From: Candidatus Poribacteria bacterium
Lineage (GTDB): Bacteria; Poribacteria; WGA-4E; PCPOR2b
DNA length: 64,000 bases
Assembly: GCA_022822005.1 (NCBI GenBank)
Contig: JAJECO010000096.1
Span: forward strand, 1 to 64,000
Direction of reading: 5' to 3'
The stretch's first letter is position 1. Each line of letters starts with the position of its first letter. The translations under genes and the position numbers were made by a program. A model generated the notes under the pieces. It was not told where the DNA came from. It searched no databases and saw only the letters and a list, made by a program, of their open reading frames with translations. Positions 26,411-30,994 of this stretch are shown here, piece after piece.

Positions 26411-26465
26411 CCGTCATTTACTCAAGCTGATGCCAATCCAGTTTGCTAACTCAAAGGAAAATAAA

Positions 26466-27317
26466 TTGAAGATCGCATATTTCGATTGTTTCTCAGGTAT
26501 TAGTGGAGATATGGTACTCGGTGCCTTGGTCAATGTAGGTGTCGATCCAGACGCACTGAGCACAGAGTTGGCAAAGTTGAAACTTGACGAATTTACTCTC
26601 CGTTTCGAGAGAACCACGAAACACAGCATCAGCGGCACACGGGCAGTCGTGGAAACAGATGATCCGACTGGAGATTCACACGACCACAACGATTCCTCGG
26701 AGGCGCATCACCATCACACCCACGATCATGGTCATGACCACGATCACGAGCATCATGACCACTCGCACACGCATGGACCGAGTCGCCATCTCTCTGATAT
26801 TTTCGCCATACTGGACAATAGTGATCTTGAGGAAGTAATTATTGATCGCGCAAAGCGAATCTTCGATCGACTGGCAGCGGCGGAAGCGAAAGTCCACAAC
26901 ACCTCCAAAGATCAGGTACACCTACACGAAGTCAGCGGTATTGATGCGATTGTGGACATCGTTGGAGCCGTCGCTGGACTGCACCTCCTAGAAGTTGATG
27001 AGATTCACGCCTCTCCGTTATCACTCGGCGGCGGCTTCGTCCGATGTGCTCATGGATTCATGCCTGTTCCTGCACCGGGAACAATGGAGTTGCTGTGCGG
27101 AGTGCCCGTCCGACAGACCGAAATCCGAAAAGAACTGGTGACCCCCACCGGCGCAGCCATTATCACAACGCTTGCAGACGGATTCGGCACGATGCCGGAG
27201 ATGACGATTGACCAAATCGGCTACGGCGCCGGCACCCGTAACCTTGAGGAGCAACCCAACCTCCTACGACTCTGCGTCGGTAAAAAAAAACTATCGAGGG
27301 TGATCAGGTCTGCGTAA
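26466..27317 (+). CDS. larC: LarC N-terminal part (nickel-pincer cofactor nickel chelatase, LarC1)
   Basis: LarC inserts nickel into the pyridinium bis-thiocarboxylate cofactor of lactate racemase-type enzymes. The N-terminus KIAYFDCFSGISGDMVLGA is diagnostic, as are QVHLHEVSGIDAIVDIVGA and the TPTGAA-type block (VTPTGAAIITTLA). A His/Asp-rich segment at about residues 75-105 probably holds metal. The start is TTG at 26466 behind AAAGGA; upstream codons from 26430 are not conserved. After AAA-AAA-AAA (27282-27290) this frame ends within 9 codons. The rest of LarC continues in the -1 frame, giving about 421 residues if the frames join. Confidence 0.93.
   Translation: MKIAYFDCFSGISGDMVLGALVNVGVDPDALSTELAKLKLDEFTLRFERTTKHSISGTRAVVETDDPTGDSHDHNDSSEAHHHHTHDHGHDHDHEHHDHSHTHGPSRHLSDIFAILDNSDLEEVIIDRAKRIFDRLAAAEAKVHNTSKDQVHLHEVSGIDAIVDIVGAVAGLHLLEVDEIHASPLSLGGGFVRCAHGFMPVPAPGTMELLCGVPVRQTEIRKELVTPTGAAIITTLADGFGTMPEMTIDQIGYGAGTRNLEEQPNLLRLCVGKKKLSRVIRSA
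27281..27290 (+). other. T-A9 slippery run at the larC1/larC2 frame junction
   Basis: Nine A residues (27282-27290), in frame as three AAA codons. A -1 slip gives the reading ACT ATC GAG GGT GAT, which continues LarC. The zero frame stops at 27315-27317. TATC-GAGG (27292-27299) could pair with CCTC and GATA around 27330-27341, but the spacer is short. A single missing A in the assembly would look the same. Confidence 0.7.
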
Positions 27318-27733
27318 TTGAAACCAACCTCGACGATATGTCGCCAGAGATCGCAGGTTACCTGATGGAGCAACTCTTTGATCGAGGTGCCCTCGACGTT
27401 TTTATGACGCCGATTTTCATGAAGAAAGGTCGTCCAGCGACAAAACTGAGTGTCCTCTGCACACCTCCCCTCCGCAATACTCTAAGTAAAATGCTTCTCG
27501 TAGAAACCACGACGTTTGGCGTCAGATCCTACACCGTTGAACGATTAAAACTCACCCGTGATTTTGTCGATATCCAAACGCGGTGGGGCACTGTTCGTGC
27601 GAAGTGCGGGTATTTGGAGGATCAGCGAATTAAAACAGTCCCCGAATACGAAGATTGCAAGCAGCTCGCGGAGCAACACGGTGTGCCACTCAGGGAGATT
27701 TACGAAGAAGCGATCCGACAGATGGGCGAATGA
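27290..27733 (+). CDS. larC: LarC C-terminal part (LarC2), reached by frameshift
   Basis: About 147 residues in the -1 frame relative to LarC1. ETNLDDMSPEIAGYLMEQL and LDVFMTPIFMKKGRPATKL are the LarC2 signatures; KVRxE-type C-terminal elements appear as ERLKLTR. The first in-frame ATG is at 27338, without a ribosome binding site, and starting there would lose the NLDDM motif. Continuous translation from LarC1 is therefore more likely than a separate gene. No larA, larB or larE lies in this window. Confidence 0.88.
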   Translation, partial: TIEGDQVCVIETNLDDMSPEIAGYLMEQLFDRGALDVFMTPIFMKKGRPATKLSVLCTPPLRNTLSKMLLVETTTFGVRSYTVERLKLTRDFVDIQTRWGTVRAKCGYLEDQRIKTVPEYEDCKQLAEQHGVPLREIYEEAIRQMGE

Positions 27734-28282: not shown

Positions 28283-28759
28283 ATGCAAACGACACTGAAA
28301 CGTTGGAAAATCTATCTTGATAACTGCTGTTTGAGTCGCCCTTTTGATGATCAGACGCAGGAGCGGATTCGCCTTGAAACTGAAGCTATCGTGTGGATTA
28401 TGGACCACTTTTACGAAGGGCAATGGTGGTGGGTTTCCAGCGAAGTTGTCATGTTTGAAGCTCTCCCAATGGGCTCTCGCCTGTTAAATTACGCTCATCA
28501 GTTCGTTTCTGTTAGTGCAGTGGAAACATCAAGAGGCAAATATCTCGAATCATTGGGTTTTGAGCCGTTCGATGCCTTGCATCTTGCCTGTGCTGAAAGT
28601 GGTAATGTGGATCTACTTTTAACGACGGATGACCGGATGCTCAAAAAGGCGAAAAACATTAGTCCACAACTTCGCCTCCGTGTCGAAAACCCACTCACAT
28701 GGTTGCAGGAGGTAACTGAAAATGAACACACGAGACCTGACAGAAGAGCAGATTCATGA
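28283..28759 (+). CDS. PIN-domain protein (VapC-like, putative ribonuclease toxin)
   Basis: A 158-residue PIN-fold protein. The metal-binding acidic residues can be placed at Asp13 (YLDNCCLSRPF), Glu54 (SSEVVMFEA), Asp97 (FDALHLA) and Asp116/117 (LTTDDRML). The pattern YLDxCCLxRPFDDQTQxRI is typical of a family paired with a small partner. The C-terminal NPLTWLQEV is also characteristic. The downstream gene starts 38 bases before its stop, indicating coupling. It probably cleaves RNA as the toxin of a pair. Confidence 0.83.
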   Translation: MQTTLKRWKIYLDNCCLSRPFDDQTQERIRLETEAIVWIMDHFYEGQWWWVSSEVVMFEALPMGSRLLNYAHQFVSVSAVETSRGKYLESLGFEPFDALHLACAESGNVDLLLTTDDRMLKKAKNISPQLRLRVENPLTWLQEVTENEHTRPDRRADS

Positions 28760-29018
28760 TCTCGGTATTGAAGCACTTTTGATTAAACTTGGACCCGCTG
28801 GAACGATCCGTTTTCTCCATCAGTATGACACGGGTAAGGGCAATTACTCCGTTGATCGGCATCAACGACTTACCATCCCAGATGTCGAGACGCTCGCAAA
28901 CCAGATTCAACAAGCACGCGAGTTGGAGAGTCCGGCGAGACTCTACTTTGAACCCGTTCAGAATGTCCATCGTGCAGCCCAAGAGCTTCAAAGGTTGCAA
29001 GATGCGTGTCTCCATTGA
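28722..29018 (+). CDS. Putative antitoxin partner of the PIN protein
   Basis: A 98-residue, mostly helical protein (LTEEQIHDLGIEALLIKLG, then RFLHQYDTGKGNYSVDRH). It has no classical DNA-binding motif that I recognise. The strong ribosome site GGAGGT lies about 11 bases upstream within the PIN gene. The 38-base overlap is the main evidence that the two act together. The antitoxin role is inferred from position only. Confidence 0.6.
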   Translation: MNTRDLTEEQIHDLGIEALLIKLGPAGTIRFLHQYDTGKGNYSVDRHQRLTIPDVETLANQIQQARELESPARLYFEPVQNVHRAAQELQRLQDACLH

Positions 29019-29070
29019 AAAAGGCGATTATAAGAAAGCCATCGCAGACTTTGACAAATCAAGGGGATAA
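29002..29070 (+). pseudogene. Tetratricopeptide-like remnant
   Basis: The frame from 29002 reads MRVSIEKGDYKKAIADFDKSRG and stops. GDYKKAIADFDK is the consensus first helix of a TPR unit, with no further repeats. It overlaps the end of the putative antitoxin gene in another frame. It may be a leftover of a TPR gene or a chance match. Confidence 0.35.
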
Positions 29071-29121
29071 AACGAACCATGATATTCACGATGCGTGCCG
29101 CTATTCCGCGGTCCATCATCA

Positions 29122-29170
29122 AGGGACGCGCAATGAATTGCGCTGTACGGGCGGGGTTCTCCCGATCCCT
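29122..29170. repeat. Two-hairpin structured element before the nuclease gene
   Basis: Outer stem AGGGA (29122-29126) with TCCCT (29166-29170). Hairpin 1 is GCGCAAT-GA-ATTGCGC (29128-29143). Hairpin 2 is CGGG-GTTCT-CCCG (29152-29164). It has the same layout as the elements at 1-107 and 4065-4116 but a different sequence. It ends 20 bases before the start at 29191. Confidence 0.6.
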
Positions 29171-29190
29171 ATGAAAGGAGAAAAGGAACG

Positions 29191-30939
29191 ATGCGCTGCG
29201 TAAGGGTTGAATGGGAAGGACCTTTCTCTATTGAGGAAGCGTTAAGACTGAATGGTCGGGGCTTATACCAGATTTACGGTCATCACATCATCTTTGGAGC
29301 AAATTCCCTGCTCTACGTTGGAAAGGCGGAAGGTGTGAACTTCGATCAACGATTTAACAGTCGGAAGGAAAAGTGGTTGTTGGAGGAAGAAGGAGTATCA
29401 ATAAGAATCGGTCGAATTATGAACGAAGATTATGCTTATGATCCGCCAAATTGGCCAGATTGGCGGAAAGTTCTTGGGGCTGCTGAGGCACTCACAATCT
29501 ACTGGCACTCACCGCCATATAATGGATCTAACATTAGCGAATACAATGGCCAGCTATTCCGAGTTGTGAACCTAGGGGAACGGGGTTGCTTGGTTGCGGA
29601 GTACAGAAGTGATGAGCAAAAGGAGTGCAGAAGTGATAAGCGGAAGTGGTTCTCTAATTTGTCTGCAAAAGCTATCAATCCTAATGTAGAAACATGTTAT
29701 CCACTTCCTAAATTAGATGAACGCGATTTGCAGCTTGTAGGAGAATGGTGTGAACCTTCACGGTATAATCTCAATCGAACCTCATTAATAGAAGATCGCA
29801 GCAAGAAGGAATGGGAATTAGATCGATTACTTTCCGCAAGGTCTGCAGAAAAAGTAGCTGCAAATTTTTATTCGCTTTATGGAAAGATAGTAGAAGATAT
29901 CTCGATTACACAAATCGACGAAAATAGTAAACCCGAGTGGGAGAAGTACGACCTAAATGTTGATGGACTTTCTATTGATGTCAAAAATTCTCGTCGATCT
30001 CAGAACAGTCCGGACAGGTATACCAAACACTGTGTTCCAAAATTCAAGCGCAGTAGAGAAAACCAAGATGTAAAAATCGCCGGCGTTTTTTCCCCTTACC
30101 TATCGGCATATGAGTTACTAGGTGAACCTGAACCATATCATAAATATCGCGAAATTCAATTTCTTGGAGAGATAACCCGAAAAAAGTTACAGGAATTGAA
30201 AAACGAATTTAATGATTTGATTGATTTTGCAGAGCCAAATCCTGCAAGCAAATATTTTCTCCCTCCATGGGTGTTTGACTATCCCGAATATGTTTACACA
30301 GAACGAGATAAAGCACTAAAGGAACTAAAAGACTTTACCAACCTTGATTCGTTAAAGGAAGGTACATTTGGGTTCAATCTGATTCCGGTAGCCATTGCGG
30401 CTGGTATAGACTTAACGGGAATTTTAGACAACAAGGCTTTAGACGGCTGGGAGCGAAGTTTCCTTGATCGGCTCCGTAACCGAATAGAAAAATACGGGCT
30501 CTCACTGCCTTTTTTATTTCTTACCATATTAGAGCATTTTCTCTATATGACTGCTTACTCCAAAACAGTTTCTGATTTTGAGCCAAGCAAATATAGAAGA
30601 TTCCTTTTCTTATCTGATAAGCCTTTAGGTATTTACGATCCTCTGAAAACCATAGATGCACTTATCAATGCGTTAAGCACTTTATGGACTGCTGAAAATG
30701 GATTGATTCGCACATTCCATGTGTTCAGATTACAGAGTTTTAACATTTTACAGGGTAAATCTAATCTAAACGATAGCTCATGGACAACACTAATTGCCCA
30801 TTGTGGAGGGCGGTTAGAAGGCGGATCTGCCTGTGGTAAGAATCCCTTAGTTTTAGGTGAAACAAAGCACTGTGAAAGCGGCAGATTGATATGCCCAAAC
30901 TGCGGCTTTTGTTGTGATCCACCCCACAAAAATCTATAA
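29191..30939 (+). CDS. Putative dual nuclease: GIY-YIG + PD-(D/E)XK-like + zinc ribbon
   Basis: A 582-residue protein I cannot assign to a named family. Residues 20-115 look like a GIY-YIG nuclease: GLYQIYG (24-30), LLYVGKA (40-46), Arg54, Glu99 in AAEALTIYW and Asn111 in PPYNG. Around 225-275 lies a restriction-type core: YDLNVDGLSIDVKNS, with Asp254, Asp263 and Lys265 as a possible PD-(D/E)XK site. The middle is helical. The C-terminus has Cys538, 548, 561, 568, 571 and 574/575 as a zinc-ribbon-like cluster. It is noticeably more AT-rich than its neighbours, follows a PIN pair, and has AAAGGAGAAAAGGA before the ATG. A defence or mobile-element nuclease is likely. Confidence 0.65.
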   Translation: MRCVRVEWEGPFSIEEALRLNGRGLYQIYGHHIIFGANSLLYVGKAEGVNFDQRFNSRKEKWLLEEEGVSIRIGRIMNEDYAYDPPNWPDWRKVLGAAEALTIYWHSPPYNGSNISEYNGQLFRVVNLGERGCLVAEYRSDEQKECRSDKRKWFSNLSAKAINPNVETCYPLPKLDERDLQLVGEWCEPSRYNLNRTSLIEDRSKKEWELDRLLSARSAEKVAANFYSLYGKIVEDISITQIDENSKPEWEKYDLNVDGLSIDVKNSRRSQNSPDRYTKHCVPKFKRSRENQDVKIAGVFSPYLSAYELLGEPEPYHKYREIQFLGEITRKKLQELKNEFNDLIDFAEPNPASKYFLPPWVFDYPEYVYTERDKALKELKDFTNLDSLKEGTFGFNLIPVAIAAGIDLTGILDNKALDGWERSFLDRLRNRIEKYGLSLPFLFLTILEHFLYMTAYSKTVSDFEPSKYRRFLFLSDKPLGIYDPLKTIDALINALSTLWTAENGLIRTFHVFRLQSFNILQGKSNLNDSSWTTLIAHCGGRLEGGSACGKNPLVLGETKHCESGRLICPNCGFCCDPPHKNL

Positions 30940-30994
30940 CAATTAACTATCAGGAGGGACAGGACGAAAGGGGTTAAATATGAACCAACACACC

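Follow-up and report, generated by a model that had tools for sequence, protein, structure and literature searches.

The gene at positions 29191-30939 of the window (the whole 64,000-nucleotide stretch of DNA that was analysed) codes for a protein in which a GIY-YIG domain is fused to the amino terminus of a putative nuclease core. Residues ~150-582 represent an unnamed nuclease-like family, rare and scattered over several phyla, whose members carry other amino-terminal heads elsewhere. That a single core carries four different heads is the least expected finding of the analysis. The evidence leans towards a single-gene defence nuclease directed against phages or other foreign DNA, built from a fixed core and an exchangeable head.

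Organization of the gene

The reading frame starts with ATG, has no internal stop and codes for 582 amino acids. Its parts and key codons are the following:

29191-30939, + strand, complete gene, GIY-YIG head followed by a PD-(D/E)XK-like, helical and zinc-ribbon core (ORF call, conserved residues)
29191-29625, + strand, GIY-YIG head, residues 1-145 (homology to ~155-aa proteins that stand alone in the genus)
29266-29268, 29314-29316, 29350-29352, 29485-29487 and 29521-29523, codons of head residues Y26, Y42, R54, E99 and N111, respectively
29626-29685, + strand, fusion junction or linker (homology to the core family begins at about residue 150)
29803-30180, + strand, PD-(D/E)XK-like segment (invariant residues, 11 homologues)
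29848-29850, 29950-29952, 29977-29979 and 29983-29985, codons of core site residues E220, D254, D263 and K265, respectively
30181-30792, + strand, conserved middle region with the motifs LPPWxFxYP and YDPxxTI (homologue alignment)
30793-30936, + strand, carboxyl-terminal Cys-rich ribbon (six invariant cysteines; weak FYVE-like match)

In the genome search, residues 1-145 match stand-alone proteins and the sequence from about residue 150 on matches a different protein set. The GIY-YIG part has a GC content of 46% (GC3 46%) and the core one of 39% (GC3 33%), compared to 49% for the window; the AT-richness ascribed to the gene in an earlier sequence-only reading is thus found in the core. The two pieces have separate histories and differ in GC content, and the gene is therefore a mosaic. 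The 582-aa protein has no match among the models of Pfam, NCBIfam, PADLOC (PADLOC-DB v2) and PHROGs. The same reading knew of no standard family with this order of domains, and neither the databases nor the literature provided a match. Its proposal of two nuclease-like cores and a zinc ribbon in one gene is borne out by residue conservation, as detailed below.

The GIY-YIG head

The head residues G24-L-Y26, L-L-Y42-V-G, R54, E99 and N111 are invariant in an alignment of five related proteins, R54 and E99 being those first picked out from the single sequence. GIY...YIG, R, E and N follow each other in the order found in the GIY-YIG superfamily (UvrC, YhbQ, PF01541), and on these residues the head is accepted as a member. 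It differs from the better known branches in that it comes from a lineage-specific ~155-aa family, of which one member alone reaches PF01541: the stand-alone paralogue L002, 58% identical to the head, scores E 0.0049, below the curated cut-off. The window domain itself gives no match to PF01541. The GIY-YIG profile aligns to E. coli YhbQ in the correct register (hhalign E 0.002, probability 13%). The closest stand-alone ~155-aa relatives, from the same genome and genus, share 58-61% identity with the head, which by homology was copied from such a GIY-YIG gene of the genus. Its fusion to the core was found in one genome only.

Other small genes of nuclease-like or GIY-YIG type are often found close to the stand-alone GIY-YIG genes. 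One of the stand-alone genes, in the genome of the window itself, has close by a fragment with similarity to the restriction endonuclease CfrBI (PF09516, E 3e-5; L055:7821-8306). At L055:9578-10364 and L057:9607-10393 the stand-alone gene follows a conserved ~96-aa winged-helix-like gene (LGPTEISKRLG...), with which it possibly forms a two-gene unit.

The core: a PD-(D/E)XK-like site and a cysteine ribbon

An alignment of 11 core homologues, with identities as low as 26%, has 37 invariant columns. E220, D254, D263, K265 and N266 are invariant in all 11 sequences (E70, D104, D113, K115 and N116 in the numbering of the core alignment, to which 150 is added to obtain protein positions), as are the ribbon residues C538, C548, C561, C568, C571 and C574. 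The pattern E-x20-50-D-x7-12-[DE]-x-K is present in 72% of shuffled cores, so that its presence in a single sequence is no evidence of a site. The site E220...D254...D263-V-K265 is real because all 11 homologues, even at 26% identity, retain its four residues along with the six cysteines. The D...DxK site at 254/263/265 and the Cys-rich zinc ribbon predicted from the window sequence are both upheld by this conservation.

AlphaFold predictions of the whole protein and of the PD-(D/E)XK segment, obtained with two-sequence alignments, have pLDDT values of 30 and 36. Comparison of the core by hhalign with E. coli Mrr, a DUF3883 protein and a DUF2726 protein gave no significant result, the core belongs to no Pfam family, and the PDB, searched by sequence with profiles of the core and of GIY-YIG, returned no real match, the weak FYVE-like match on the ribbon aside. 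With no confident fold and no significant profile match, assignment to PD-(D/E)XK rests on motif conservation. The core can be placed in this superfamily by its residues only, with the helix Glu, the Asp and D-x-K in the expected order. Three aldo/keto-reductase-like proteins (L004, L023 and L024) that gave weak matches were set aside as chance. No description of the core family was found in the literature.

Distribution and horizontal spread of the core

Among 387 genomes from the window's phylum and from other bacteria, six have the core family, and all six belong to the window's order. It is also found in 2 of the 64 genomes from the phylum of a Latescibacteria MAG and on 6 plasmids out of 72,556, plasmids of Sinorhizobium and Microvirga among them. 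No homologue of the core or of the head was found in 50,697 phage records, nor in viral contigs by pattern search. The GC content of the core is below that of every host sequence tested (0.39-0.43 in hosts of 0.49-0.58), and the plasmid copies have values of 0.50-0.63 compared to 0.59-0.68 for the plasmids. Between the window and Latescibacteria cores dS is 0.56, while rpoA dS between members of the window's genus ranges from 0.53 to 0.98 (0.08 for the close pair G000-G003) in a comparison that leaves out G009 and G012. The interphylum divergence of the core lies within or below the within-genus rpoA range, and the core has therefore, as judged from sequence divergence, spread horizontally with a recent move between phyla.

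Exchange of heads

The heads found on the core are GIY-YIG (window), RpoA, TPR and Tudor-like. The label of the last one, the commonest head, derives from a weak Pfam match to the PcrA/UvrD Tudor-like domain (E 0.025). Within a single orthologous locus, G002 has a Tudor/SH3-like head, a coiled coil and the core, and G003 has a TPR head, a similar coiled coil and the core. The TPR head derives from a gene found on its own in four other genomes of the genus, which was copied together with its ribosome-binding leader and joined within a few codons of its stop.

The RpoA head of G003 comprises a 44 nt leader and 317 of 321 codons, and is 94% identical to canonical RpoA, whose gene is intact elsewhere in the same genome. 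The GC content of this head is 48%, the host level, and that of the core behind it 40%. G001 retains a relic of the ribbon only at the orthologous place. The RpoA copy has a dN/dS of ~0.08 over a dS of 0.38, with 24 synonymous and 7 non-synonymous changes on its own branch, though part of this selection may date from before the fusion or transfer, or stem from another species. No description of an RpoA-nuclease fusion was found in the literature.

Three of the four heads thus consist of almost a whole gene, copied and fused immediately ahead of its stop codon, with captured leaders of 44 nt (rpoA), ~25 nt (TPR gene) and ~20 nt (GIY-YIG). The fusion junctions, known from MAG contig assemblies, contain no N. 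On the evidence of these alignments, the amino terminus is repeatedly swapped for copies of ordinary bacterial genes.

The second rpoA and the nuclease-like core form a single ORF of 876 aa in G003 (L048:8635-11265, contig C122), and a transposase-like gene lies directly upstream.

Genomic surroundings

The window gene occupies a slot whose content varies between sister species. The features around it are:

29177-30985, no strand, variable slot holding the gene (comparison with sister species; neighbourhood 29062-30985)
28283-28759, + strand, PIN-domain gene (PF01850, E 1.6e-5; absent at the corresponding place in G003)
28722-29018, + strand, 98-aa ORF overlapping the PIN gene (no family match; kept in G003 without the PIN gene)
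29076-29176, no strand, single-copy intergenic element (83% conserved in G003)

The corresponding slot of G003 (L074), where the flanks are ~93% identical, contains genes for an N6/N4-methylase-HNH protein and for an FRG-TPR protein (PADLOC PDC-S15); that of G002 (L076) is filled by a methylase-HNH gene. The defence setting proposed for the site thus agrees with its use by methylase and FRG genes in sister species. The supposed pair of PIN-domain genes next door is reduced to the one at 28283-28759, since the 98-aa ORF has no family match. The element described as a structured repeat is single copy and conserved in the sister species, which rules out a repeat family at 29076-29176. No methyltransferase was recognised beside the window gene on reading the ORFs at 24-36 kb. 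The methylase-HNH proteins of the sister species are each encoded by one ORF that combines a DNA N6/N4-methylase and an HNH endonuclease domain (L076:8879-10357 and L074:7375-8631).

Plasmid copies of the core are found close to defence genes. On plasmid L029 a GajA-GajB (Gabija) pair follows 135 nt downstream of the core gene. On L028 the core gene is near SspH, the two being separated by a gene for a phosphorothioation-associated methyltransferase. It lies amid DrmA, MzaA-like sigma, Vsr, HNH, C5 (cytosine) methylase and NsnA-like genes (DISARM/Mza-like) on L027, and near DUF3883, DUF559, HmaA/HmaB-like and VapC genes on L025. Plasmid L030 has weak defence-like neighbours only and no defence neighbour was found for the plasmid copy L026 (Variovorax). 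The neighbour analysis suggested at the outset thus returned Gabija, Ssp, DISARM/Mza and restriction genes near plasmid copies, as a raw listing. Most copies from the window's phylum stand by themselves amid ordinary genes, outside large defence islands.

On the Synechocystis plasmid CP101712 the core homologue is split into two ORFs in different frames (L025:7863-9259), which would reflect a decaying copy or a sequencing error. In G009, genes for the large and small terminase subunits, a prophage remnant, are found ~3 kb from a core homologue (L051:4484-6891).

Comparison with known systems

SNIPE is a membrane-bound phage-defence nuclease with DUF4041 and GIY-YIG domains, in which the nuclease is conserved and the amino terminus is diverse, often resembling host membrane proteins (PMC13190303). 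The window family shares with it, in design only, the single gene with a conserved nuclease part and a variable amino terminus that can resemble host proteins. The roles are inverted: GIY-YIG is the conserved carboxyl-terminal part of SNIPE and the variable amino-terminal head of the window protein, whose conserved part has a PD-(D/E)XK-like site and a zinc ribbon. The window protein has no DUF4041 match in Pfam, PADLOC or NCBIfam and is therefore not a SNIPE. CMoRE (PD-T4-3) is a GIY-YIG type IV restriction enzyme defined by its GIYxY-YIG motif (PMC12923530). It has likewise an amino-terminal GIY-YIG domain followed by a different carboxyl-terminal domain in one protein. In the window protein the GIYxY-YIG motif is absent and replaced by an invariant GLYQIYG, so that it is not a CMoRE; in place of the 5hmC reader its carboxyl-terminal part has another putative nuclease and a Cys ribbon.

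The order of the helix E, D and D-x-K and the short strand-turn-strand spacing are like those of PD-(D/E)XK nucleases such as Mrr_cat and NOV_C/DUF3883, but the window core has neither a significant profile match nor a Pfam family. Homing endonucleases lie in an intron, an intein or a phage intergenic site, while the window gene is free-standing in the host. The RpoA head of the G003 relative recalls the plant NLR-ID integrated-decoy receptors, in which a copy of a host protein is fused to an immune effector (PMC11611257), a parallel that is an analogy only. Taken together, the core would represent a new nuclease-like family, in no PADLOC family, that belongs to a known functional setting and has an unusual mode of head capture.

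Proposed function

The fixed carboxyl-terminal two-thirds of the protein (PD-(D/E)XK-like site, helical middle and zinc ribbon) would be the effector that cuts nucleic acid, and the exchangeable amino-terminal head would decide where or when it acts, a design that has been proposed for SNIPE (PMC13190303). With its GIY-YIG head the window protein would gain DNA binding and a further cleavage activity. The head may be a DNA-cutting unit in its own right, and the protein could then cleave in two ways, by a nick plus a second cut or on different substrates. The defence reading is favoured by the invariant E/D/D/K residues and six cysteines, the defence neighbours on plasmids, the shared slot, the AT-rich mobile core, the head swaps and the SNIPE parallel. 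Counting against it are the low pLDDT values, the non-significant hhalign results, the ordinary genes surrounding the copies of its own phylum, the Variovorax copy and the GIY-YIG fusion found in a single genome. Of the original claim, the two cores, the ribbon and the defence-type neighbours are retained, but GIY-YIG is an add-on and not a fixed component of the system.

The strongest rivals are modification-dependent restriction and neutral fusion. The former, unlikely though it appears, would make the protein a type IV-like enzyme in which the ribbon and middle region read modified phage DNA, GIY-YIG and/or PD-(D/E)XK cut it, and other heads are incidental. It fits a single gene for which no adjacent methylase was recognised in the window, the Ssp, methylase and Mza genes found close to homologues, and the precedent of CMoRE, a one-gene GIY-YIG enzyme with a carboxyl-terminal modification sensor (PMC12923530). 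Yet no known modified-base reader domain was found in the protein, the CMoRE GIYxY motif is absent (GLYQIYG) and the RpoA and TPR heads are left unexplained. It is quite unlikely that the heads have no role and that recombination merely supplies the core gene with the leaders, promoters and start codons of genes that are adjacent or duplicated. A ribosome-binding leader is indeed part of the captured piece in all three fusions. Nevertheless almost the whole coding sequence was captured each time with its frame kept, the window gene keeps its GIY-YIG residues intact, and the RpoA copy has been constrained (dN/dS ~0.08 over dS 0.38), even if some of this period may lie before the fusion or transfer.

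A selfish or mobile-element nuclease, of homing type or involved in plasmid maintenance and cutting for its own spread, is very improbable. Horizontal spread, AT-richness, the GIY-YIG head and the G009 copy ~3 kb from terminase genes would be expected of such an element, but the 50,697 phage records and the viral contigs (pattern search) hold no homologue, no intron, intein or transposon ends were seen, and the slot is common to methylase and FRG genes. The mobile-element part of the initial suggestion, an undescribed restriction or mobile-element nuclease, is accordingly the less likely one, given the absence of phage or viral-contig homologues and of an intron or transposon structure.

Within the preferred reading of a defence nuclease with exchangeable heads, the core might be a bacterial counterpart of integrated decoys that captures near-complete copies of host genes (RpoA, TPR, GIY-YIG) as bait or targeting heads, phage attack on the host factor, or transcription, then triggering or guiding cleavage. 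This is a speculative and rather doubtful extension. Two of the four heads are possibly linked to RNA polymerase, namely RpoA and, through its weak PcrA/UvrD match, the Tudor-like one. The RpoA-nuclease fusion makes it testable whether immune sensors are built from copies of host proteins targeted by phages. The family adds to the defence-associated set an unnamed nuclease-like member with invariant residues that can be mutated, and offers a set of naturally occurring head exchanges on a common core.

Other features of the window

At 26430-27733 of the window, larC is found in two overlapping frames split at a GGTAAAAAAAAAC run. The same split occurs in G003 (L074) and probably in G002 (L076). 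It looks like a programmed ribosomal frameshift, as described for larC1/larC2 of Lactobacillus.
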